From: Limnobacter sp. SAORIC-580
Lineage (GTDB): Bacteria; Pseudomonadota; Gammaproteobacteria; Burkholderiales; Burkholderiaceae_B
NCBI RefSeq assembly: GCF_013004065.1
Contig: NZ_CP053084.1
Location: 186,001 to 250,000 of the forward strand
DNA length: 64,000 nt
Direction: 5' to 3'
The number at the start of each line of letters is the position of its first letter. Position 1 is the stretch's first letter. This document shows, piece by piece, positions 186 through 10,777 of the stretch. Position numbers and translations under genes: made by a program. The notes under the pieces were generated by a model that was not told the origin of the DNA, did not search any database, and was given only the letters and a program-made list of their open reading frames with translations.

Positions 186-527
186 TTACTGTTGCTTAAC
201 CAACTGCTCAAAACTTTCGGATACTTTGCTACCAATCTTTCCAGTCAATTGAACTGAGACCGATTTCATTGAGCTCACATGCATGGCATCAATCAGGCTG
301 AATACGCTGTCACGCGAATCAAAGTCCCGAAGTTTTTTGTCCATACTTACTTTGCTTTGATCCAGTTGTGTTTGCGCTTTTTCCACAAAATTTTTCACAG
401 ACTCGTTCACTGGATTGGGCTCGGACAGGAGTTGGGAGAATCGCGATACATCTTCGGGAATCGCTTTTGGGCTGGCGCCGCCTGTGAGCGGACTATTTGT
501 TTGAATTGCTGCAATCGATTCAATCAA
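186..527 (-). CDS. sctI: T3SS inner-rod protein, SctI (YscI/HrpB2 type)
   Basis: This 113-residue protein has no signal peptide or membrane segment. Its C-terminus (about residues 84-113) contains SVSVQLTGKIGSKVSESFEQ and ends LVKQQ. This fits the conserved end of the SctI/HrpB2/YscI family, in which a 'V..(D/Q)LT.K..GK.S....LVK.Q' helix builds the rod joining the basal body to the needle. It starts at TTG 527 with GGAG upstream and overlaps the end of the preceding SctP-like gene by 8 bases, which suggests translational coupling. A second rod-like protein sits at the more usual place before sctJ (6593-7021), so which of the two is the true rod is open. Confidence 0.68.
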   Translation of the reverse strand: MIESIAAIQTNSPLTGGASPKAIPEDVSRFSQLLSEPNPVNESVKNFVEKAQTQLDQSKVSMDKKLRDFDSRDSVFSLIDAMHVSSMKSVSVQLTGKIGSKVSESFEQLVKQQ

Positions 528-1446: not shown

Positions 1447-2649
1447 TTACGATGAGGGCGACAAAATTGCAGACAGCTGGGTGTTGCGTTCAATATTTTC
1501 AACGAGGATTTTTCGTTGATTTGAATTTTTATACATGCCAATTAACAGATCATGGAGTAGAACCCAGCGACAATAATTTGTGATGAAAGCGTTGCGGGCA
1601 GGCAACTTGTCGGATCGAACTGCCGACGCAATTGCAATGAGAGCGTTCGCGCCAGCAAGGGTTTCGTTGGTTAGCACTGCTTGAAGACATGACTCGGTCA
1701 ACTGGGCCATGCTTGGTAAGCCCTGAAGATTGGCAGTACGCCCCCAATCAAGAAATTTACCGTGCAGGGCATGAAGGTTGATGAGCAGGCCGAACTGCTT
1801 AATGCGACTCAAAATAATGTGATGTCTGGGGCTGGTTACCCTGCTGGGTTCCTGCGTTTTTTCGCGACTTAAAATTTGTACAAAACCTTCTTGCATGGCG
1901 ATTAACTTGCTCCGCGGCGCGCCGGCTTCGAGGTCTTTTTTGATTAACTTGTACAGTGCGTGAAGATCTGGAACCGATATGGTGTTGGGCTGAATTTCAA
2001 TAATTTGGTAGGCTTTGATAAATTCGCGCAGCGAGGGACCTTTAAATGCTTTGGCTTTGCCAATGTCGTAGGCGCCCACTGTGCCCTGAATGAAATCGCC
2101 AAACTCGCTTTCCAGTTTTTTTCGAACCAGCAGCAATTCAGTTCTGTCGCCTGCACTGAGCAAGCCACCGTGGTCTTGCTCCAGTGACTTGAGCAACAGA
2201 AATTTTCTCAATGCTTTTTCGGCAGGGTTTAGATCACCCGCTAAATCAACCAGGCTTTTCCCTTTGCTTCTGACCGAATGAAGCATGGACATCTGGTCTT
2301 TGTGATGAAAGCTGTCACTGCCTGTGAACAGTGTTTTGTAAATATCTGCATATTTGCTACCTCGACCCTTTTTCTTGGGGTCTGCTTCAGCCAGACCTCG
2401 TTGTAATGCAGCATGCTGTTGTTCCGAAGCATTGACCTGCGGCTCGCTACTTGAACCTGCTAGGCCTTGCGGATGAACTGATGCATCGTTTCCGGTTTGA
2501 CCGCTTTGGGTGTGTGCTGCAATGAAGCGTTCTACACGCTTTTTTCCTTCTCCTTCAAGCGGGCGGCGATTTGCAAGACTCCCGTGAAGCGCTTCGGTTG
2601 TGGTGACCTCCTGAAGACCGCTCGGTTTGACCGGAATTGCTGTATTCAT
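1447..2649 (-). CDS. sctW: T3SS gatekeeper, SctW (YopN/InvE/HrpJ family)
   Basis: This 400-residue, mostly helical soluble protein has a disordered N-terminus (about 1-95), as expected for a secreted gatekeeper. Helical repeats follow from about residue 100 to 385, with HrpJ/YopN-type segments such as SLVDLAGDLNPAEKALRKF and YQIIEIQPN. Gatekeepers of this family bind the export gate and set the order of translocator and effector export. The length matches MxiC/InvE (about 355-372) plus a longer N-terminus. The start ATG overlaps the sctC stop in an ATGA arrangement, so the two are translationally coupled. A separate TyeA-like partner is not visible; the C-terminal part probably covers it, as in InvE. 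Confidence 0.72.
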   Translation of the reverse strand: MNTAIPVKPSGLQEVTTTEALHGSLANRRPLEGEGKKRVERFIAAHTQSGQTGNDASVHPQGLAGSSSEPQVNASEQQHAALQRGLAEADPKKKGRGSKYADIYKTLFTGSDSFHHKDQMSMLHSVRSKGKSLVDLAGDLNPAEKALRKFLLLKSLEQDHGGLLSAGDRTELLLVRKKLESEFGDFIQGTVGAYDIGKAKAFKGPSLREFIKAYQIIEIQPNTISVPDLHALYKLIKKDLEAGAPRSKLIAMQEGFVQILSREKTQEPSRVTSPRHHIILSRIKQFGLLINLHALHGKFLDWGRTANLQGLPSMAQLTESCLQAVLTNETLAGANALIAIASAVRSDKLPARNAFITNYCRWVLLHDLLIGMYKNSNQRKILVENIERNTQLSAILSPSS

Positions 2650-4397
2650 CGAACACCCTCCAGTCGGTTATCCAAGCGCAATGCGGGCGTTGGTTGCAGG
2701 TTTTCACCTGTGAGTTTGAATGACTTTTGAAGCGAGTTGATGGCTGCGCGAGTGGATTCGGAGTTGTGTGGTGGGTCTTCGATCAGCCTTGGTGTAATCA
2801 AAAACAGACGAGCTACATTCTGGCGTTGTTTCTGCTTGCTGGAGAATGCAGCTCCGATGAATGGCAGTGAGCCAAGAACCGGGACTCGGTAATCTTTGTC
2901 GCCTTCAGATTCGCGATTGTAGCCACCAATCAAGATGGCTTTTTCGCGTTGAATCAATGCCTGCGTACTTAGAGATGTATTTTGAATGCTGGGAGCAGAG
3001 ATGCTTTGCGCGCTTTGCATATTCTGAGTGATGTTGCCATCCTGAATTTCAATGCGCAGGAAGATGCGGTCGTCGCCTCCTTCCTTTACCAGCCTGGGCG
3101 TCACTTGAAGCAAGCTGCCTGCCGTCACAGGTACTACATCTGCCACTCGTTCACCCAATACCTGCAGGTACAGGGTTTGACTCAAATCTATATAAGCCGA
3201 TACGTTGTCCTGGGTGACAATTGTTGGGCGAGCTAATACCTTTGCATTTTCATCAGCGGATAAGGCTTTCAGACGGGCTAGAAAGCGTACTGGGTCCACA
3301 ATGGTACTGGCGCCTGGAATGGTAAGACTGGGGGAGTTCACGCCAGAACCGGGGAAATCGTAAAGTAGATGACTGGATTGAAATCCAAATTCAAGACCCA
3401 GTTCATTCAAGCCGCGTTGATCAACTTCCACCAACATCGCTTCCACTTCGATCATGGGCAGCGGACGATCCAGTTTATCAATCAGTTGTTTGTAGTAGTC
3501 AAATTTACTTTTCGCATCACGAACCAGAATTGAGTTTGTGCGCGGGTCTGCAGTAACACTGACCGGAGCTTCTTCTTTTTTTTCTGTTTGGGGTGCTTCT
3601 TTTGGTGGAGTAAGAGTGGTTGGTGACATGACTTGGGCACGGTAGTTGTTACCTTGTAGCAAACCCATGCCAGCAGTTTGTTGCCCGGCACCATCAACAA
3701 TCATGCCTGCCTTTTTGTTTTCTGGGGATGCTGTCATACGCTGGTTTGGTAAACCCAACAGATTGAGCAATACCGATAAGGCACCAGGTGTGGTTAGTGT
3801 GGCACCCCTCAGTGTTGTTTGGCGATCTTCGACGGATGCGTATTGAAGCGGAAAAACCATCAACTCAATGCCGTGCTTCGCAATTTCAGAAGGGTCGGGT
3901 GGGGCTTGTTCAAAGGCTTCACGCAACAGGTTCAGGTAGCTTCTGGGTCCAGACACGATCAGTTCCTTGGTGTCGGAATTAATTGCGAATGGGAATTCCT
4001 TGTAGAAAAGCCCAGCAGATGTCAGCAAATCCTTCCAGTCGTCATTGCTGCGAGCGCCGCCAACGAATATTTTTTGGGTTCGCCAGTCATCAGACCGATA
4101 AACATAGACTTGGGTACCATTTTGGAACCAGTTGATGCGAAAGGAGCTACGGAAGTAAGCCATTAACTCTTCGACGTTGGAGAATTCAAACTTTCCGCTG
4201 ATTGGGCGAGTGTTAATCGCGTTTGTATTCAAGCGCAGTCCAAGCATGTCCAGCATGGTTTCCAGTGCTCTCTTGGAGGATTCTTCCTGGGCCATGTAGA
4301 TTCTCATTTCTGCTTTTGCTGCAGATGCCGCTTGCAACCATGCGCCCTGAACCATGATCAGGGAGGCCAGCGTTATTGCTTTAATCCACTTCTTCAT
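2646..4397 (-). CDS. sctC: T3SS outer-membrane secretin, SctC
   Basis: This 583-residue precursor has a Sec signal peptide (MKKWIKAITLASLIMVQGAW, cleavage near AASA). N0/N1-type periplasmic domains occupy about residues 30-165. The secretin core runs from about 320 to 545 and shows the family signatures VEAMLVEVDQRGLNELG and ARLFLITPRLIED. Only two N-domains precede the core, as in YscC/HrcC and unlike type II secretins. It forms the outer-membrane ring through which the needle passes. I chose ATG 4397, which overlaps the end of sctL by 17 bases and puts the signal peptide at the start; a longer reading from 4451 adds an implausible basic leader. No pilotin gene is visible. Confidence 0.9.
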   Translation of the reverse strand: MKKWIKAITLASLIMVQGAWLQAASAAKAEMRIYMAQEESSKRALETMLDMLGLRLNTNAINTRPISGKFEFSNVEELMAYFRSSFRINWFQNGTQVYVYRSDDWRTQKIFVGGARSNDDWKDLLTSAGLFYKEFPFAINSDTKELIVSGPRSYLNLLREAFEQAPPDPSEIAKHGIELMVFPLQYASVEDRQTTLRGATLTTPGALSVLLNLLGLPNQRMTASPENKKAGMIVDGAGQQTAGMGLLQGNNYRAQVMSPTTLTPPKEAPQTEKKEEAPVSVTADPRTNSILVRDAKSKFDYYKQLIDKLDRPLPMIEVEAMLVEVDQRGLNELGLEFGFQSSHLLYDFPGSGVNSPSLTIPGASTIVDPVRFLARLKALSADENAKVLARPTIVTQDNVSAYIDLSQTLYLQVLGERVADVVPVTAGSLLQVTPRLVKEGGDDRIFLRIEIQDGNITQNMQSAQSISAPSIQNTSLSTQALIQREKAILIGGYNRESEGDKDYRVPVLGSLPFIGAAFSSKQKQRQNVARLFLITPRLIEDPPHNSESTRAAINSLQKSFKLTGENLQPTPALRLDNRLEGVR

Positions 4398-5049
4398 ATT
4401 GATTACCTTTGGTAGCGATTGAATCCTTGATTTCTTTTTGCAGGTTTTCAATCTCTCGTTTGTATAAAGCCATCAGATTTTCAATTGACACCTGAATTTC
4501 AGAGCCTTTCGCTGCCTTGATTCTTAGTTCAAAGGGTTGAAGGTCGTCGGCGATTTGTACTTCCCACTTGCGCAGCATTGCTTGGTTCGATATAACTTTG
4601 CCCAGCGATTCCTGAACCAGATTGATTTGACAAGTAGTACATTCAAGGACCAGTTCTTGATTGCTTAAGGAATGCTCAAGCAAAGCTTTCACCAGTTTTT
4701 CGATTTTGATTCGATCGGGTACTGTGTTTAAAAACTCGCTCAATGCGGCTACGCTGATATCGATACAAATTCTTGCAGAAGTGTCGGCAAGTGCTTTAAC
4801 TCTCTGACGCATGGTTCTCCGAATCGATTTGAGGTCCTGTTGCATGGATTCAGCAATTTCCTGTCTGGCTTGCTCTCGAATCCGGTTAGCCTCTTGATTG
4901 GCTGCGCGAATGATCGACTCAGCCTCATCGCGCGCGTATGCAACGATGTCATGGTGGTTCTGTGCGAACTTTAATGTGCGTGCTGGAATGAGATGATCGT
5001 GAATCTGAACATCAGCTGGAAAGCGTATTTTGCGCAGGAGATTAAGCAT
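4381..5049 (-). CDS. sctL: T3SS stator/ATPase regulator, SctL (HrpE/YscL/FliH family)
   Basis: This 222-residue soluble protein has a long charged coiled coil (about residues 40-95, with AESIIRAANQEANRIREQAR) and a C-terminal globular part. This is the pattern of SctL/FliH proteins, which dimerise and tether the ATPase SctN to the sorting platform. The start is ATG 5049 (MLNLLRKIRF), preceded by GGAGGA and overlapping the sctK stop by 8 bases. It is followed by sctC rather than by the usual ATPase gene, so sctN must be elsewhere. Confidence 0.82.
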   Translation of the reverse strand: MLNLLRKIRFPADVQIHDHLIPARTLKFAQNHHDIVAYARDEAESIIRAANQEANRIREQARQEIAESMQQDLKSIRRTMRQRVKALADTSARICIDISVAALSEFLNTVPDRIKIEKLVKALLEHSLSNQELVLECTTCQINLVQESLGKVISNQAMLRKWEVQIADDLQPFELRIKAAKGSEIQVSIENLMALYKREIENLQKEIKDSIATKGNQYEEVD

Positions 5050-5797
5050 TCGCTCCTCCGTATAGCTGATCGACATCTACAGTTGTGTAATCGCCATCCA
5101 GAAGCAAATCATTTTCAATTTCCAGTTTTGGCTCTTGATGTTGTTGATTAATTTCGTCAAACAACGCCTGGATTTCTGTAGCTAGCCATTCATGCACTTC
5201 TTTCCACAAACCCTGCTCTATTGGATCGATTGTGTCCACTAGACGAACGACTTGATGGGGTACATTCAGCGCCCACCGTTTGAAAAACGATGGAAAATAG
5301 CTTTTTAGAACCACGCCTAGTCCTATTTCTACGCGCGTCTGAATCGAGATCACGAGGCGATCATCTTGATTGATCGCGTTGGCACATTGATACTGCCACC
5401 GGTTCAGACGGATCGGTATGCTTCGATAAAATTCAATAATTTTTCGAATTTCATCTGCTGATTTGACATTGAACTTTTGATCCCATTCTTGGGGGCGCGC
5501 ATGGATGATGCTGGAATCCAGTGTGAGTGACGCCACTTTTATCAAGTGCATTTCGAGTTGTTTCTGCGTCGACAAGGAGATGGAAATCAGTTCTGGATAA
5601 TGCAGTAGATCTTGATCGGGATGGTCATCAAGTTCCAGCACACTTCGTGTTTGCAAAAGCTGGAAGTAATCAACCGATGATTTGCCAGCTTTACCCAGTG
5701 CGTATGGCATGCGGTGCTGATGATCGCTATTGAGACCGATCAGTGGGTTACTCCACCAACGCCACCATTCAACTTGAAGTGTTTTGGGCAGACTCAT
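5042..5797 (-). CDS. sctK: T3SS sorting-platform protein, SctK-like
   Basis: This 251-residue soluble protein, starting MSLPKTLQVEWWRWW, lies exactly between sctJ and sctL, the place of SctK (YscK, HrpB4, OrgA) in many T3SS operons. SctK links the cytoplasmic sorting platform to the inner ring. The family is very divergent, so recognition rests on synteny, size and the soluble mixed helical character. The ATG overlaps the sctJ stop (ATGA). A longer reading upstream would overlay sctJ and is rejected. The acidic tail (about 225-251) is rich in Asp and Glu. Confidence 0.66.
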   Translation of the reverse strand: MSLPKTLQVEWWRWWSNPLIGLNSDHQHRMPYALGKAGKSSVDYFQLLQTRSVLELDDHPDQDLLHYPELISISLSTQKQLEMHLIKVASLTLDSSIIHARPQEWDQKFNVKSADEIRKIIEFYRSIPIRLNRWQYQCANAINQDDRLVISIQTRVEIGLGVVLKSYFPSFFKRWALNVPHQVVRLVDTIDPIEQGLWKEVHEWLATEIQALFDEINQQHQEPKLEIENDLLLDGDYTTVDVDQLYGGANA

Positions 5798-6591
5798 TTC
5801 AAGAATCTCGAGCGAATTGATTGCAACACTGATGGCCACTGATCGATACCCTTGGCTTGTAGCCAAGTCAGGCCGATTGAAAGCATCCACATGAAAAGAA
5901 TGATGTACACGATTGCCAGGAAGTAGCCTTTGTCTGCAGCACTCAGCGCAATTGGGCCGTACCACACCAATGGTACGCACTCGTCGATTTTTAGTTCTGA
6001 CGGTATGGCAGTAACGGTGACATTGGATTGAGCATCGCCAGCGATACCGGGAATGCTTTTAAAGACCATTTCACGTACCTTTGGAATGTACGCTGGGAAC
6101 TGGGCTTGTTCACTGTACTTGACGAATACTGCGGCAGACGATGGGCTGAGCGGTTCTCCTGGATTTGCACGTTCGGGCAAGACGATATGTACTTTGGCGG
6201 AGAGCACGCCATCGATACGCATAAGTGTATCTTCGAGTTCTTGCGACAAGGCGTATAGATAGCGGGCTCGTTCTTCCAGCGGCGAACTGATCATGTTCTC
6301 TTTTTTGAACACCTGTCCGATTGAAGATTTTTTGTCACGGGGTAAGCCATTGGCTTGGGTGATACTCAATGCATTGGCCGAGAGATTTTCGGGTACAGAA
6401 ATCGCAGAACCCTCTTTAGTTCTTGTTTTTTCTGCGGGTATTCCTGCGGCCAAAAGGTGTGAGTAAATTTCATTGGCTTCTGGCTCGGACAATCCATTAA
6501 AGAGCATGGCTCTGTCAGAACAGCCAGTGAGAATCAGCACCAAGGTGAAGGCGCCAAGGTATCGCTGAATGAAGCGGAGTGGCTTGCTCAA
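5794..6591 (-). CDS. sctJ: T3SS inner-membrane ring lipoprotein, SctJ (YscJ/PrgK/HrcJ)
   Basis: This is a 265-residue lipoprotein. It has a signal peptide with lipobox LILTGC, two ring-building modules (about 30-95, 110-190) with the family stretches LSEPEANEIYSHLLAAGIPA and VHIVLPER, and a C-terminal transmembrane helix (about 215-240). SctJ makes the inner ring of the basal body together with SctD. I chose TTG 6591, which lies just after the stop of the preceding gene with GGAG 8 bases upstream and gives a normal-length signal peptide. An ATG at 6633 is possible but overlaps the upstream gene by 41 bases. Among the T3SS calls this is one of the safest. Confidence 0.92.
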   Translation of the reverse strand: MSKPLRFIQRYLGAFTLVLILTGCSDRAMLFNGLSEPEANEIYSHLLAAGIPAEKTRTKEGSAISVPENLSANALSITQANGLPRDKKSSIGQVFKKENMISSPLEERARYLYALSQELEDTLMRIDGVLSAKVHIVLPERANPGEPLSPSSAAVFVKYSEQAQFPAYIPKVREMVFKSIPGIAGDAQSNVTVTAIPSELKIDECVPLVWYGPIALSAADKGYFLAIVYIILFMWMLSIGLTWLQAKGIDQWPSVLQSIRSRFLK

Positions 6592-6592
6592 T

Positions 6593-7021
6593 TTATCTTC
6601 TCCGAGTAACAGAGGTGACTTCTTCGGAGACATCTTCGGCAGTGTTGCCTACCCGGCTGACACCTAGAAAGTAGTAGGCTGAGGAAAATTGCTGTTGGGT
6701 GACGGCTTTGGCAAAGTTACCATCCGTGGTGTGTCCACCTTCTAATTGTTGAATACTACCCATGAGGTGACGTTGCAGGCGGCTGATATAAAACTCTGCT
6801 TTATTCAGTTCAACAGCTGACTTGGCAAGAAGCGATGGTGCTGCTTGGTCTGAGCGGGGTGAAGTGATTTTGGTATCAAGCGCGCTGGATGAAGTCTTAA
6901 AAGTTTCTTTTAAGCCAGTAAGCAATTGTTGAAAGTGTTCAACGTTTTGCGCAGGCGCGATGAGTTGGGCAGGTTTTAATTGCGTGAAGTTTAGTACGGG
7001 ATTGATGTCGATCTTCTGCAT
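6593..7021 (-). CDS. Rod-like small protein upstream of sctJ (candidate SctI paralogue)
   Basis: This 142-residue soluble protein stands immediately before sctJ, the place of yscI and hrpB2 in other systems. An N-terminal segment contains VEHFQQLLTGLKETFK, a middle helix contains ELNKAEFYISRLQRHL, and a C-terminal helix contains QQQFSSAYYFLGVSRVGN. A 'Q..F......' helix near the end is compatible with rod or needle packing. It lacks the clear 'LT.K..GK.S' signature of the 113-aa SctI at 186-527. It may be the true rod, a second rod, or a system-specific basal-body part. Ribosome site GAGGTG precedes the ATG, and the gap to the motor gene upstream is 72 bases. Confidence 0.5.
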   Translation of the reverse strand: MQKIDINPVLNFTQLKPAQLIAPAQNVEHFQQLLTGLKETFKTSSSALDTKITSPRSDQAAPSLLAKSAVELNKAEFYISRLQRHLMGSIQQLEGGHTTDGNFAKAVTQQQFSSAYYFLGVSRVGNTAEDVSEEVTSVTRRR

Positions 7022-7093
7022 TGTGCACCTCTATTGTCCTGCGCATTCTAAGTATTGCCCCTGCGGACAAAGTTCCACGAAGGGCCTCTTCGC

Positions 7094-7891
7094 CTATAAC
7101 ATGCAACGTTCCTGGTTGTTGTCATGAAATTTAAGTTCATATTCCGCAGAGTTCGATTTCTCGGATTCATGCCCGTAAAATTGGAGACGAAGCTCGATTC
7201 GTCGGCTCGCGTCTTTGGATTGTTGGAGGTTGTTGAAAGCCACACCGCCGGCCAGAAAGAGTTTTTTTATCTGGATTCGTTGATCTGAGTTGAACTGGAT
7301 TGGACTGTTGTTGCTGGATTGCAGCAAGGTGCACATGACCCATTCTGAGCGTTTTAGACTGAGATTCAGGTTGTACAGATAAGAGCCGTCGGTGTCGGTA
7401 TACCCTTCAATAACTACTTGTTTGAGCCACTTCTGACCCATCGGCGTGTTGGCTGTTTCAAGAATGACTGGCACTACATCGGCCAGCGCGGCTTGGCCGG
7501 CCTCGCCTAACTTGTATTCGTCAGTGTCGAATTGTCCCTGCGCACCGAAATTGATTCGGTTTAGCTTGCAATCTACATTCAAATCGGGGTTAACCTGTTC
7601 GGCTTTTTGGGAGAGGGTGTCGCAGATTGCGTTAATTTCTTGAAACCGAAGTTCCGTTTGTGTCAGTTCTGGATCCGTGGTGCGTATGATCACCTCCGGT
7701 TTTTCAAGATCTCCTTTTTGAGCTTTTTCAACCAGTTCCTGGGCTTGCCTGGAAATTGCTGACAATGCGGCAACCATGATGACCAAGAACAGAATCATCA
7801 AGGCTGTCATCAAATCTGCGTAAGAAATCCAAAAAGGTTTCTCGCCTTCATCACTTCGGTGCGCAGGCGTGTAAGACGTCATCAAACTCAT
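7094..7891 (-). CDS. ZorB/MotB-like stator subunit with OmpA-type peptidoglycan-binding domain
   Basis: This 265-residue protein has a short cytoplasmic N-terminus, a single membrane helix (about 21-45) beginning FWISYADLMTALM, a linker, and an OmpA/MotB-type domain (about 110-245) with the peptidoglycan-binding pattern IEGYTDTDG...NLNLSLKRSEWV. Asp26 in the helix is placed like the ion-carrying aspartate of MotB and of ZorB, the anti-phage Zorya motor. In such motors, two B subunits sit inside five A subunits and use ion flow to turn the A ring. Its ATG overlaps the stop of the A-like gene (ATGA). The rest of a Zorya system (ZorC/D or ZorE) is absent; T3SS genes follow instead. Confidence 0.82.
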   Translation of the reverse strand: MSLMTSYTPAHRSDEGEKPFWISYADLMTALMILFLVIMVAALSAISRQAQELVEKAQKGDLEKPEVIIRTTDPELTQTELRFQEINAICDTLSQKAEQVNPDLNVDCKLNRINFGAQGQFDTDEYKLGEAGQAALADVVPVILETANTPMGQKWLKQVVIEGYTDTDGSYLYNLNLSLKRSEWVMCTLLQSSNNSPIQFNSDQRIQIKKLFLAGGVAFNNLQQSKDASRRIELRLQFYGHESEKSNSAEYELKFHDNNQERCML

Positions 7892-8913
7892 GATTGCACC
7901 GAAGATGAAGCAGTGTCGTCGTGGCTTTCTTGTTGTCTGGCGCGAATTACCTTCATGGCCAAATCCTGAGGCGTGCTTTTAATGTGACTTAGTCGATTGT
8001 CCAGACGCGCACCCATGTCTTCAATGGGTTGTTTTACTTGCCGTGCCAATGCAGTTTCAAGTTGATTGACTAACCGTTTGTTTGATTCGTTGAGCGCTTT
8101 CTCCAGGGCTTGGCTTAAGCCGTCGTCTCTTTGGCCTTGAACAGATTCAAGTTGTTTGATTACCGGCAGCATGGCTTGCAGCAAGTCGTCTTTCAGGTCT
8201 CGGGTCAAGTTGCTGGCGCTAGACGAGTGTTGTACAAGCGTTGCCAAGTATTCCTCGCCGACACCCGGCTCAAACAGGCCGTTCATGGCATCAACCAAGT
8301 CATCAAGAGCTGCCAGATTTTTGCGGTAAAGCGATTTTTCCCAGTGTGTGATTACCATGGCGGCACAGATCGCGGCAGCGGAAGCATAAAACGCATCGCG
8401 AACACCCCCAATCAACAGGGTGATACTTTCATTCATGTTTTCGACACTGGAGGCATCAAAACTGCTCAAACCAAATAAAAGACCCGAAAATGTACCAATG
8501 ATGCCAATGCCGGTGAGAATACCCGGGAGATGCTTGAAGTACTCGACGCCCAATGGACGGTCTATGACGGTGGAGGCTGAGAAGTGGGTAGACACAGGCA
8601 CAGTCAGACGAAATTTCCGGTTTCGTTTGACGCCGTTGATCATGCCGGTTTGTGGGTGCAGGGTCTTGGCGAAATCTTTCCAAGCTTTTTCGAGCATTGT
8701 TCCCTGAAAAATTCGGGCAACACCGTCTTTGCGCATGAAGTCATCACCCTCAGACATTGAGCGCACGGTGCTGCCAATTTTGGATATCAGATCCGCCAGT
8801 TCTTTGGACTTGAGTACATATTGTTTGTAGAAATTGAAGCAGGATAAGCACAAGAGCACCATCACTGCGGCGGGTGGAATTAGCTGGATAAGATTGGTTG
8901 TGGTTGTGCTCAC
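7888..8913 (-). CDS. ZorA/MotA-ExbB-like stator subunit
   Basis: This 341-residue membrane protein has helices at about residues 9-34, 129-152 and 165-190. The second helix carries LPGILTGIGIIGTFSGLLFG and the third follows LLIGGVRDAFYASAAA, the pore-lining pattern shared by MotA, ExbB/TolQ and especially ZorA. A roughly 150-residue cytoplasmic coiled-coil tail (about 191-341) follows. As I recall, ZorA of defence systems has a much longer tail, so this form is short. The start is GTG 8913 with AAGGAAG upstream. It is the first gene of the leftward operon and is coupled to the ZorB-like gene, which is then followed by the T3SS ring genes. Confidence 0.8.
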   Translation of the reverse strand: MSTTTTNLIQLIPPAAVMVLLCLSCFNFYKQYVLKSKELADLISKIGSTVRSMSEGDDFMRKDGVARIFQGTMLEKAWKDFAKTLHPQTGMINGVKRNRKFRLTVPVSTHFSASTVIDRPLGVEYFKHLPGILTGIGIIGTFSGLLFGLSSFDASSVENMNESITLLIGGVRDAFYASAAAICAAMVITHWEKSLYRKNLAALDDLVDAMNGLFEPGVGEEYLATLVQHSSSASNLTRDLKDDLLQAMLPVIKQLESVQGQRDDGLSQALEKALNESNKRLVNQLETALARQVKQPIEDMGARLDNRLSHIKSTPQDLAMKVIRARQQESHDDTASSSVQS

Positions 8914-8962
8914 CGTGTCTTCCTTGAGGATCGATTCGGATTGTCGAAAAGGGGTGGTTACC

Positions 8963-9025: not shown

Positions 9026-9052
9026 AAAAAGGCACCCCGAAGGGTGCCTTTT
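9026..9052 (-). terminator. Rho-independent terminator of the FecR-like repeat protein gene
   Basis: On the minus strand a 7-base-pair stem GGCACCC/GGGTGCC with a TTCG tetraloop is followed by TTTTT. It lies about 45 bases after the stop of the gene at 9095 and separates that gene from the motor-T3SS operon. The plus strand also ends in TTTT, so it may work weakly in both directions. A second hairpin (GCCTGGGG/CCCCAGGC) sits at 9059-9081. Confidence 0.85.
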
Positions 9053-9094: not shown

Positions 9095-10777
9095 TTAGAT
9101 GGGCAGGCTGTCTGTGGGCAGCGCGCTGGTCAATGCATCCAGTGGGCTTGCGCCTGAGGAGATTGGCAGGCTGGAGGGATCCAGCAAGCTTGTCAATGAG
9201 TCCAGAGGCGTGCCTGTGGATGGGAAGCTTGGCAAGCCACCACCTGCACCACCGCCCGCTGCCAGGTCGGTCAGTACGCTAGGGTCCAGCAGTGAAGTTA
9301 CCATGTCCAACGGCGTGCCCGTTTCTGGGATGCCGGGCAAACCGCCGCCACCACCTGCACCTGCCAAGGCGTCTGTCAGAATGGCTGGGTCGAGCAATTC
9401 AGTGACCATATCCAGCGGCGTACCAGTGCTTGGCAAACCAGGCAAACCGCCGCCACCGCCACCAGCCAATGCATCTGTCAGAATGCTGGGGTCGAGCAGG
9501 GCTGTAACCTGGTCCAGGGGTGTGCCTGTTTCAGGGAAGCTTGGCAAACCGCCGCCGCCTGCGCCACCCAAGGCGTCAGTTACAGGGCCAAGCACTGCGT
9601 CCAACGGTGTACCTGTGGGGCCAGCAGCACCACCTCCATCACCGCCGGGCAGCGGCAAGCCACCGGACAGCGCTGCAATCAGTGGATCGGTCACTGGTGT
9701 CAGTGCGTCGAAAGCTTGGTTCAGGCCATCGGCCAAAGGCTGGGAAACCATGGGCAGTGCATCAGTTGCAGTGGCCAAGCCATCAAACAAGGGCGCGGCT
9801 GCGTCAAAACCTTGGGTCAGACCATCGTTCAGTGGGCCCAGGGCTGGTGCAAGCGCTCCAACTGCCTGAGACAGGCCATCGGCCAGCTGGGGTGTCACCA
9901 TGCTCAAGCCGCCACCCAGTTGTTCTGCGACCACGCGCAGATTAACTGGCAAAGTGTCAGCAGCGGCTGTCACCAAACCATCTTCATTGCCCGCCAACAC
10001 ATCGACCACGGGTGAAAGCGCTTCTTCAACAGCTTCAGTGATAGGTGTTACGTTTTGATCCAGAGAGTCGGTCACTGGGGCCAAGCCTGTCAGTGCATCA
10101 CTCAAGGTGTCGTTCACAGGTGTAAGCGCTGGCTCGAGTGCATCCGTGATGGGTGCTGTTTCTTCCAGCACTGGATCGAGTGCTTCAGTCACGGGTGCCA
10201 AAGCACCTACTGGCGCATCAACCACTGTTGTTACAGGGGACAGGGCATCCAGAGTCTCTTCGAGTGCGGGGGAGGCAGGGCCGGCTGCATCGGTAACGGG
10301 CTCGAGTGCGCCTGCGGCTGCTTCGCCAGAGCCACCACCGGAAGAACCACCGCCGGATCCGCCGTCGCTGTCATCGCTTCCCAACACGAATGCAGCACCA
10401 GCTGCTGCTGCCAATGGGCCAGCCAAACCGCCTGCGGCCAAACCTGCACCAAACAAACCAAACATACCGCCTGCGCCTGTTACAGCTACAGTTTCGCCTT
10501 CAGTCAGCAATTCGAATTCGCCTTCGGCCACTTCAAATTCAGCGCCGTTTTCGCCTTCTTTCAGCGTAGCTAATGCGTTGGACTGCAGAATACCCTCAGT
10601 GGCTTGCTGGCCATCTGCACCCGGGAATTCAATGTAGGCAGAGCCCTCGGCACTGGTGGTGACGGTGTCACCCGCAGAAATAATGTCGCCTTCTTTCAGA
10701 AGGACTTGTTCACCGTCGGGACGGGTTACAGAAACCTCTCCCAACACGCTTTTGATAATTCCAGTGATATTAGCCAC
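9095..10777 (-). CDS. Repeat-rich protein with FecR-like/retention-module N-terminus
   Basis: This 560-residue protein begins with a FecR-like beta domain (about 1-100; GIIKSVLGEVSVTRPDGEQV), similar to the N-terminal retention module of LapA-type adhesins. A Gly/Ala hydrophobic stretch (about 101-133) and a Gly/Ser linker follow. The rest is low-complexity repeat: many 'ALxPVTDAL' units (about 155-385), then five longer units starting TGTPLD and containing LLDPS.LTDALAGGGGGGLP (about 390-545). It has no RTX repeats and no type I secretion signal I can see, and no transporter genes are nearby. Giant adhesins with this N-terminus are usually several thousand residues, so this is a short, unusual member. 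Codon use seems ordinary. Function is unknown; a surface or envelope role is inferred. Confidence 0.75.
   Translation of the reverse strand: MANITGIIKSVLGEVSVTRPDGEQVLLKEGDIISAGDTVTTSAEGSAYIEFPGADGQQATEGILQSNALATLKEGENGAEFEVAEGEFELLTEGETVAVTGAGGMFGLFGAGLAAGGLAGPLAAAAGAAFVLGSDDSDGGSGGGSSGGGSGEAAAGALEPVTDAAGPASPALEETLDALSPVTTVVDAPVGALAPVTEALDPVLEETAPITDALEPALTPVNDTLSDALTGLAPVTDSLDQNVTPITEAVEEALSPVVDVLAGNEDGLVTAAADTLPVNLRVVAEQLGGGLSMVTPQLADGLSQAVGALAPALGPLNDGLTQGFDAAAPLFDGLATATDALPMVSQPLADGLNQAFDALTPVTDPLIAALSGGLPLPGGDGGGAAGPTGTPLDAVLGPVTDALGGAGGGGLPSFPETGTPLDQVTALLDPSILTDALAGGGGGGLPGLPSTGTPLDMVTELLDPAILTDALAGAGGGGGLPGIPETGTPLDMVTSLLDPSVLTDLAAGGGAGGGLPSFPSTGTPLDSLTSLLDPSSLPISSGASPLDALTSALPTDSLPI
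9199..9622 (-). repeat. Tandem DNA repeats encoding TGTPLD units
   Basis: Five imperfect copies of a segment encoding TGTPLD...LLDPS.LTD...GGGGGLP lie at spacings of about 87 to 106 bases inside the repeat protein gene. Copies differ at both synonymous and coding sites. The Gly runs are encoded by CCGCCGCCACC-type tracts on the plus strand and could vary in number by slippage. Confidence 0.75.

Follow-up and report, generated by a model that had tools for sequence, protein, structure and literature searches.

Evidence for a Zorya-type zorAB gene pair integrated into the type III secretion gene cluster of a Limnobacter lineage

Organization of the locus

The DNA studied here, referred to as the window, is a stretch of 64,000 nucleotides (positions 186001-250000) of the single-contig, 3.30 Mb genome of Limnobacter sp. 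SAORIC-580 (G000; relative genomes are labelled G, loci L and database proteins P where a label is needed). It contains part of a type III secretion system (T3SS) gene cluster, and within that cluster lies a gene pair, zorA and zorB, related to the ZorAB motor of type I Zorya phage defence. The integration of zorAB into the T3SS cluster and its co-inheritance with it were strongly supported by sequence comparison. The pair and its nearest neighbors (aa, amino acids) were as follows.

8919..8925, minus strand: ribosome-binding-site-like AAGGAAG preceding the GTG start of zorA (read from the sequence)
7888..8913, minus strand: zorA-like gene, short-tailed, 341 aa (NCBIfam ZorA1, PADLOC, PDB, AlphaFold2 monomer model, hydropathy)
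7094..7891, minus strand: zorB-like gene, 265 aa; one transmembrane segment (TM) with pore Asp26 and an OmpA/MotB-type peptidoglycan-binding domain (NCBIfam ZorB1, Pfam, PDB, residue comparison)
6593..7021, minus strand: gene X, 142 aa, between zorB and sctJ; weakly SctI-like, in the same position in relatives
5794..6633, minus strand: sctJ, inner-membrane ring lipoprotein (TIGR02544, 4.7e-60, over cut-off)

The coordinates and strand agreed with a preliminary description of the window, as did the ATGA overlap of zorA and zorB (7888-7891) and the gap of 72 bases between zorB and the next gene (7022-7093). That description had called the gene at 6593-7021 rod-like; a weak resemblance to the SctI family was recovered (hhalign probability 57, P 1.1e-4), but no Pfam or NCBIfam family matched gene X, and the gene that matches SctI is another one, at 186-527. 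It had also placed the pair at the head of an operon, which was true of the window genome but not of three relatives, in which the pair lies mid-cluster.

Features of ZorA and ZorB

Hydropathy indicated three membrane segments in ZorA (TM1 ~8-34, TM2 ~131-154, TM3 ~164-188) and one in ZorB, as had been described from the letters of the window together with a ZorA/MotA pore pattern, Asp26 and an OmpA/MotB domain. ZorA matched the NCBIfam ZorA1 model NF041794 over profile positions 19-307 of 729 (E 2.8e-63, 214.5 bits, below the curated cut-off of 750), PADLOC ZorA1 (2e-74) and PDB 8qyk (2.8e-51). ZorB matched NCBIfam ZorB1 NF041788 (E 8.4e-95, 316.8 bits, cut-off 400), PADLOC ZorB1 (8.3e-86), PDB 8qyd_F (1.1e-74) and, over their cut-offs, Pfam MotB_plug and OmpA (PF00691, 8.7e-7). 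The genuine ZorA of a complete type I Zorya in another Limnobacter genome (G015) likewise fell below the ZorA1 cut-off (619.4 bits), and its ZorB was also slightly below that of ZorB1 (379.7 bits).

The residues expected of an ion-driven motor were conserved. Asp26 of ZorB was invariant in all nine aligned ZorBs and in 120 of 120 among the best 120 of 2158 homologues, and the predicted peptidoglycan-binding motif (T165, D166, R181, R230, R231) was conserved in the residue comparison. In ZorA, T141 and S178, presumably the Thr and Ser of TM2 and TM3 that line the pore, were invariant in 70/70 rows of an alignment of short ZorAs from which some members of the short family were left out. By sequence, the pair carries what marks the MotAB superfamily (a pore Asp in B, Thr/Ser in TM2 and TM3 of A, and an OmpA-like domain in B), has the parts of a working motor with an intact pore and, by homology, should form a ZorA5B2 ion motor. 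Defence by Zorya itself depends on the pore aspartate of ZorB (D24 in that system), on the peptidoglycan site and on the cytoplasmic extension of ZorA (PMC11890865; this and the other papers are cited here from excerpts).

The AlphaFold2 model of ZorA (monomer only; mean predicted local distance difference test score 80.2, predicted template modelling score 0.54) placed a beta-hairpin at 85-103 (strands 85-92 and 95-103) in a Zorya-type cytoplasmic domain; an extra beta-sheet in this domain is a hallmark of Zorya-type proteins (PMC12505986). After TM3, the model contained a helix of 76 residues (236-311; ~11 nm by arithmetic) and, at lower confidence, an end helix (315-328). The tail of the protein is only ~115 residues, and the 68 long ZorAs that were compared measure 528-833 aa as against 341 aa in the window. 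Past residue 225, the tail was 112-120 aa in 76 of 85 short-family ZorAs, the window's included, and in 66 of the 70 alignment rows; the nine exceptions were P0161 (109), P0176 (121), P0180 (132), P0194 (133), P0175 (151), P0202 (145) and three proteins shorter than 260 aa (fragments). This near-constant length suggested a fixed reach to a partner. The tail ended in conserved basic positions (K321 in 89%, I323 in 81%, R324 in 85% and A325 in 88% of the 70 short ZorAs), and the exact end pattern was found in 40/70 short and 0/68 long ZorAs. PDB 8qyh pairs a ZorA chain of 280 aa with ZorB, and a short tail therefore need not prevent assembly of ZorAB; we take that chain to be a designed truncation of E. 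coli ZorA.

Type I Zorya defence demands a long ZorA tail and a ZorA1 score over the family cut-off, together with ZorC and ZorD. Beyond the short tail and the low score given above, profile searches of the whole window genome found no match to ZorC or ZorD, in line with the preliminary description. The ZorC model had no match in any control genome, though the same model found ZorC in G015; ZorD matches occurred in 11 controls, none over cut-off. A flagellar stator, in turn, would be expected to show a MotA-type torque interface and flagellar neighbors; the modelled ZorA appears to have the Zorya-type hairpin instead, and identity as a flagellar stator was rejected because separate flagellar MotB and FliG are encoded elsewhere in the genome, ~0.8 Mb away.

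Distribution and gene order in Limnobacter

A census of 16 Limnobacter genomes, one per species, located the pair in 11 (in G010 as part of zorB only), and in 10 of these 11, the window's included, it adjoined X and sctJ. The preliminary description had undertaken to give up its reading if no other genome had the pair beside sctJ, and such genomes were found. A full T3SS with zorAB directly 5' of X and sctJ was present in seven (G000, G004, G005, G007, G011, G014, G015), and G008, a 65% complete assembly, carried zorA-zorB-X-sctJ on a 4.6 kb contig. G003 had a collapsed island (L137, C6 about 203700-206300) with a truncated sctV (453 matched residues), a zorB remnant of 191 aa and a zorA remnant of 240 aa without its middle. 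Two genomes, G001 (L144/L231) and G002 (L143/L230), had other T3SS lineages without zorAB, and T3SSs seem to have been replaced or swapped in Limnobacter; neither zorAB nor a T3SS was seen in G006 and G013. A short zorAB without at least some part of this T3SS was found in none of the 16 genomes.

In G004, G007 and G011 all the genes run in the same direction as a single cluster, sctV-D-N-(O)-Q-R-S-T-U-zorA-zorB-X-sctJ-K-L-C, and sctU and zorA are 69, 144 and 71 bp apart, respectively. SctO was unmatched in G007 and G011 in this comparison; X of G007 was readable in a 537-bp gap, and X of G011 was found separately. In G000, G005, G014 and G015 the second half of the cluster is inverted, with zorA at its head. 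Since G004 falls in one SctV subclade and G007 and G011 in the other, the mid-operon order is likely ancestral. The T3SS of G002 has sctU, a 136-aa gene at the position of X, and sctJ, with zorAB absent, which is likely the empty site. The gene for MetH lies near sctV in 9/9 other genomes examined (G003, G004, G005, G007, G009, G011, G012, G014, G015), and thus the T3SS island occupies one chromosomal site in those genomes.

Co-inheritance of zorAB and the T3SS

In a tree of SctV (19 rows, rooted on G244 by our choice), the 10 zorAB-bearing T3SSs formed one clade (support 100/99), with G001 and G002 outside. Beyond the clade came G002 (81/76), then G213 and G001; the branches of G001, G002, G213, G171 and G244 were flagged as long. 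A tree of the ZorA core plus ZorB, built from 53 rows picked from the loci after near-copies and broken pairs were dropped, likewise placed the 10 T3SS-linked rows in one clade (100/98), and its sister (100/99) was the complete type I Zorya of G015 (L136). The two trees conflicted on G012, which was weakly placed in the ZorAB tree (82/92) and grouped with G007, G010 and G011 in the SctV tree (100/100).

Across 28 pairs of 8 genomes, identity of ZorA and ZorB tracked that of SctV (r 0.96 and 0.93), as did identity of eight other Sct proteins (0.88-0.98), and mean identities were 54% for ZorA and 56% for ZorB compared with 54 for SctC, 56 for SctJ and 54 for SctU. The guanine-cytosine (GC) content of zorA (49%) and zorB (47%) was close to that of the T3SS genes (44-48.5%), with flanks at 54-59%. 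Between G000 and G005, nonsynonymous divergence (pN) was 0.24-0.26 for zorA, zorB, sctJ and sctC alike (synonymous divergence, pS, being saturated). Against strain P1, pN was 0 over 341 codons in zorA and 0.006 in zorB, with pS 0.19 in both. By these sequence measures, zorAB matches the T3SS genes in divergence, GC and constraint and is under strong purifying selection.

A correlation with SctV would be expected wherever a cluster is inherited vertically; more telling is the divergence of zorAB along with the T3SS and not with MetH. MetH identity to G000 (324-1110 residues compared) was 97% in G005, 94% in G014 and 92% in G004, G011 and G012, whereas ZorA identity was 64, 65, 65, 41 and 43% in G005, G014, G004, G011 and G012, respectively; for G007, the values were 72-82% for MetH and 42% for ZorA. 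MetH was chosen as the flank control because the other flanking gene, here called Ret, is a poor clock: compared with G005, its pN was 0.012 where that of zorA was 0.24; between G000 and P1 it was 0.063 with pS 0.52, as against 0 and 0.19 for zorA; and between G005 and G014 it was 0.056, as against 0.008.

Occurrence outside the genus

A ZorB scan of genome contigs confirmed 83 relatives, and 80 of them were retained. The gene for SctJ followed in 8/80 loci (L002-L006, L041, L042, L073), and seven of these eight, all except L003 of strain P1, are census genomes and not extra evidence. The ZorA open reading frame (ORF) was 340-366 codons, extended starts included, in the seven sctJ-linked loci with ZorA visible; L073 starts inside zorB. 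In the other 72 loci, some with short flanks, sctJ was not found (L061 had a weak secretin match), and ZorA was at least 528 aa in 67, broken or partial in three (L017, L035, L081) and not visible in two (L057, L079).

In the family (268 genomes), injectisome-type SctV, defined as at least 667 bits across a clear gap from lower matches (<618), occurred in 56 genomes, 12 in the genus and 44 outside. Only one of these 44 (G038) had a ZorB match, on a different contig. The order was sampled with 399 genomes each for the ZorA search and for the SctV search at 1e-120, with overlapping handles; the 17 SctV genomes outside the genus included none of the ZorA-matching genomes, and ZorA frames outside the genus were at least 523 aa except in G495 (333) and a fragment in G334 (110). 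A T3SS-linked short ZorA outside the genus was found in none of the 399 order genomes or the 369 genomes of the class sample, in which a 135-aa frame at a contig end (G954) was unjudgeable. In G495, of the same order, a short orphan pair (L255, 9165-10913; 324 and 249 aa) lies two genes from an ORF that is type IV pilin-like by eye, with no T3SS-gene match within ~9 kb of it nor in its 20 kb, and a short ZorA alone was rejected as a T3SS marker on this account. The short family was set apart in the protein database by score and length (P0121-P0204 among the best 120 of 241 matches), and a profile search agreed. Seven of its members carry an organism in their name, all Limnobacter, among the best 120 of each of two database searches; most carry no such name.

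The T3SS cluster and flanking genes

The remaining features around the pair were assigned as follows.

9095..10777, minus strand: gene Ret, flanking and not part of the system; weak LapA-type retention module (NF033682, 1.8e-6, under cut-off)
9026..9050, minus strand: terminator-like hairpin (AAGGCACCC-TTCG-GGGTGCC-TTTTT) after Ret and before zorA (read from the sequence)
5042..5980, minus strand: sctK by position (synteny; no family match; homologues in relatives; ORF as listed, true start may be later)
4381..5076, minus strand: sctL (HrpE/YscL PF06188, 4.2e-7, over cut-off; TIGR02499, 4e-6, under cut-off)
2646..4451, minus strand: sctC secretin (TIGR02516, 8.3e-103, over cut-off)
1447..2649, minus strand: T3SS-cluster gene after sctC (no family match; kept in several relatives; gatekeeper SctW is a guess by position only)
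186..527, minus strand: sctI, inner rod (PF17001, 9.3e-7, just under cut-off)

The locus immediately to the left of the window (L082) holds sctV-D-N-O-Q-R-S-T-U and translocator-like genes, one of SseC type and over its cut-off. SctC, SctJ, SctV and SctR scored over their curated cut-offs, SctN, T, U, D, Q and L scored below those of the NCBIfam Sct models, and SctS was assigned by homology. Judged by its gene content, the injectisome T3SS of the window genome is complete (core SctC, D, J, L, N, Q, R, S, T, U and V, plus rod and translocator). Two SctI-like genes occur in this one T3SS, at 186-527 and, only weakly so, at 6593-7021, the latter preceding sctJ wherever seen. A promoter and terminator scan gave no minus-strand terminator between zorA and sctJ; the scan was uninformative, as it found fewer sites than in shuffles and also missed the hairpin at 9026..9050. 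In G009, sctV and the start of sctD are joined to sctK with a ~13 bp overlap of matches, either a deletion or a misassembly of a metagenome-assembled genome.

Ret has low-complexity repeats after its retention module and lies beside the T3SS in several Limnobacter, including the different T3SS of G001. Some distantly related genomes have it in near-identical form, and some closely related ones differ in it more, a pattern that suggests recombination. As a partner of ZorAB, Ret is disfavoured, since it also stands beside that different T3SS without zorAB.

Function of ZorAB

Several known motors offer comparisons. ZorAB as known in type I Zorya (PDB 8qyd, and 8vvn of Shewanella sp. ANA-3) aligns with the ZorA core and ZorB over most of their length and shares the pore Asp, the conserved Thr/Ser, the Zorya-type beta-hairpin and the peptidoglycan-binding domain; the Limnobacter pair differs in lacking ZorC and ZorD, in lying inside a T3SS cluster and in its own tail-end motif. 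MotAB is also an ion-driven motor beside a type III export apparatus, with FliG as its partner, but the cytoplasmic domain of the Limnobacter ZorA is of Zorya type. The GldM-containing motor is proton-driven and powers a secretion system (PMC9127263), although of other machinery and with a large periplasmic GldM part. A 2025 paper names motility, phage defence (ZorAB), type I secretion (SiiAB), TolQR and ExbBD among pentamer:dimer motors, with no T3SS in the excerpt used here (PMC12204202).

The preliminary description had proposed a dedicated motor for this T3SS. The T3SS part of that proposal was supported by the integration of the pair; rotation or energising goes beyond what sequence evidence shows, and torque, rotation or gating by ZorAB is our inference. 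Our preferred reading, which we hold at slightly better than even chances, is that one injectisome lineage captured the ZorAB motor of a type I Zorya, which then became a dedicated component of its T3SS. The pair most likely would have inserted between sctU and gene X without ZorC and ZorD, and most of the ZorA tail would have been lost during domestication. The complete type I Zorya of G015 (L136, 5092-13338; G015:C1 about 3.453-3.461 Mb; ZorC 424 bits and ZorD 1373 bits, both somewhat under cut-offs) stands in the same genome as a T3SS-linked zorAB and is an internal control for this domestication. A ZorA5B2-type complex would occupy the inner membrane next to the needle complex, with ZorB as its anchor in the peptidoglycan, and ion flow would turn ZorA around ZorB. 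The ~11 nm tail rod and the basic end motif may pass force or a conformational signal to the sorting platform or the export gate, and such force or signal would power or activate secretion. The more specific proposal of a stator-driven T3SS, in which the domesticated, peptidoglycan-anchored motor applies torque through the short ZorA rod onto the cytoplasmic platform and so powers or switches secretion, is tentative, and we think it somewhat more probably wrong than right.

Several observations weigh against capture and dedicated use of the motor. A rotor partner is not known for the pair; a PF01706 search found one FliG in the genome, the distant flagellar one, and injectisomes are generally not thought to rotate (PMC4295842). 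The association of zorAB with a T3SS looks like a single event in one genus. The place of G002 as nearest outgroup is weakly supported and involves a long branch, and the gene that G002 has at the position of X shows no significant match to X (hhalign probability 3). In the close pair G000-G015, MetH (89%, 198 residues) was no different from ZorA (91%). Three assemblies also fit less well: in G010, zorB is represented by its C-terminal part alone, where a contig begins, followed by X and sctJ, with zorA out of view; G009 has zorA-zorB-X-sctJ-sctK with intact zorAB, but ~18.5 kb of the T3SS is gone from the contig (L149, C55); and in G012, an assembly 6% contaminated, a 4.4 kb contig distinct from that of the T3SS carries zorAB, and 464 bp separate sctU from sctJ.

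Another function for an integral T3SS accessory would be that of a gate: ZorAB would be a channel or sensor dependent on the proton motive force that permits, holds back or ends secretion while turning no part of the injectisome. The precedent is SiiAB, for which a role as a MotAB-like proton channel serving a single secretion system has been proposed; it controls the type I secretion of Salmonella pathogenicity island 4 (SPI4) and retention of the adhesin SiiE (PMC6272769), a different type of secretion from that considered here. The same integration evidence (SctV clade, co-inheritance and gene order) fits such a gate, but the near-constant ZorA tail with its conserved end motif is not obviously needed by a pure channel, and we regard this explanation as rather unlikely while taking it seriously. 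SiiAB presumably belongs to another motor subfamily. A role in the envelope, with ZorAB opening, tethering or stabilising the wall around the basal body in a Tol-like manner and so aiding assembly, would account for the conserved peptidoglycan-binding motif of ZorB and sits well with the 17 T3SS-cluster proteins scanned with Pfam (not every cluster ORF), among which no lytic enzyme was found. According to work cited in PMC12204202, enterohaemorrhagic Escherichia coli and Citrobacter lose T3SS function when Tol-Pal is lost. The T3SSs of G001 and G002 nevertheless manage without zorAB, and the conserved ZorA tail points into the cytoplasm; we judge an envelope role improbable but, like the gate, a serious alternative.

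The remaining explanations detach the pair from secretion. Homology to ZorA1 and ZorB1 would suit a Zorya that, though reduced, continues to sense envelope damage and came by chance to lie in the T3SS cluster; this reading is disfavoured by the lack of any ZorC or ZorD match in the genome, and G015 carries its separate, complete Zorya I. Both zorA and zorB are constrained about as strongly as sctJ and sctC, and in tests of one Zorya I, defence needed each component as well as the cytoplasmic extension of ZorA and the peptidoglycan-binding domain of ZorB (PMC11890865). We consider residual defence very improbable. Scarcely credible, and already disfavoured, is neutral hitchhiking by an orphan pair after its arrival in the T3SS island, a reading that the preliminary description had entertained as a chance insertion. 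The short orphan pair of G495 and the unlinked zorAB of G012 would be compatible with it; yet the data spoke strongly against it, as the pair adjoins X/sctJ in 10 of the 11 pair-bearing genomes, is kept mid-operon down to ~40% identity with an invariant pore and strong purifying selection, and decays together with the T3SS in G003. Hitchhiking and a position at the edge of the island were both disfavoured by the mid-operon position and by divergence that matches the T3SS rather than MetH.

Significance

A report of ZorAB as part of a T3SS was not found in the PMC literature searched, which was covered partly by titles and abstract openings and did not extend to bioRxiv or most subscription journals. 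Among the papers searched, the one in which ZorA, ZorB and "type III secretion" occurred together concerns milk oligosaccharides, by its title and abstract. T3SS genes of Limnobacter were noted in PMC2702493 and, with doubt, in PMC4557100, and neither names a motor in the parts used here.

Injectisome rotation and the route of the proton motive force are disputed: rotation dependent on the proton motive force was reported in Pseudomonas aeruginosa by one group (PMC3877841), as against PMC4295842. A T3SS with its own peptidoglycan-anchored ion motor makes this dispute testable by removing two genes from an environmental bacterium. In Limnobacter, a defence module has apparently turned into a part of a secretion machine, and a single genus holds the domesticated form, a Zorya relative that is complete and what is likely the empty site. 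The injection needle of the T3SS was not previously known to have a motor of its own, and zorAB is a standard part of the cluster in one Limnobacter lineage. If the stator-driven proposal is true, no injectisome before that of Limnobacter would have been found to carry an ion-driven rotary motor of its own, and the arrangement would have arisen independently of flagellar MotAB.

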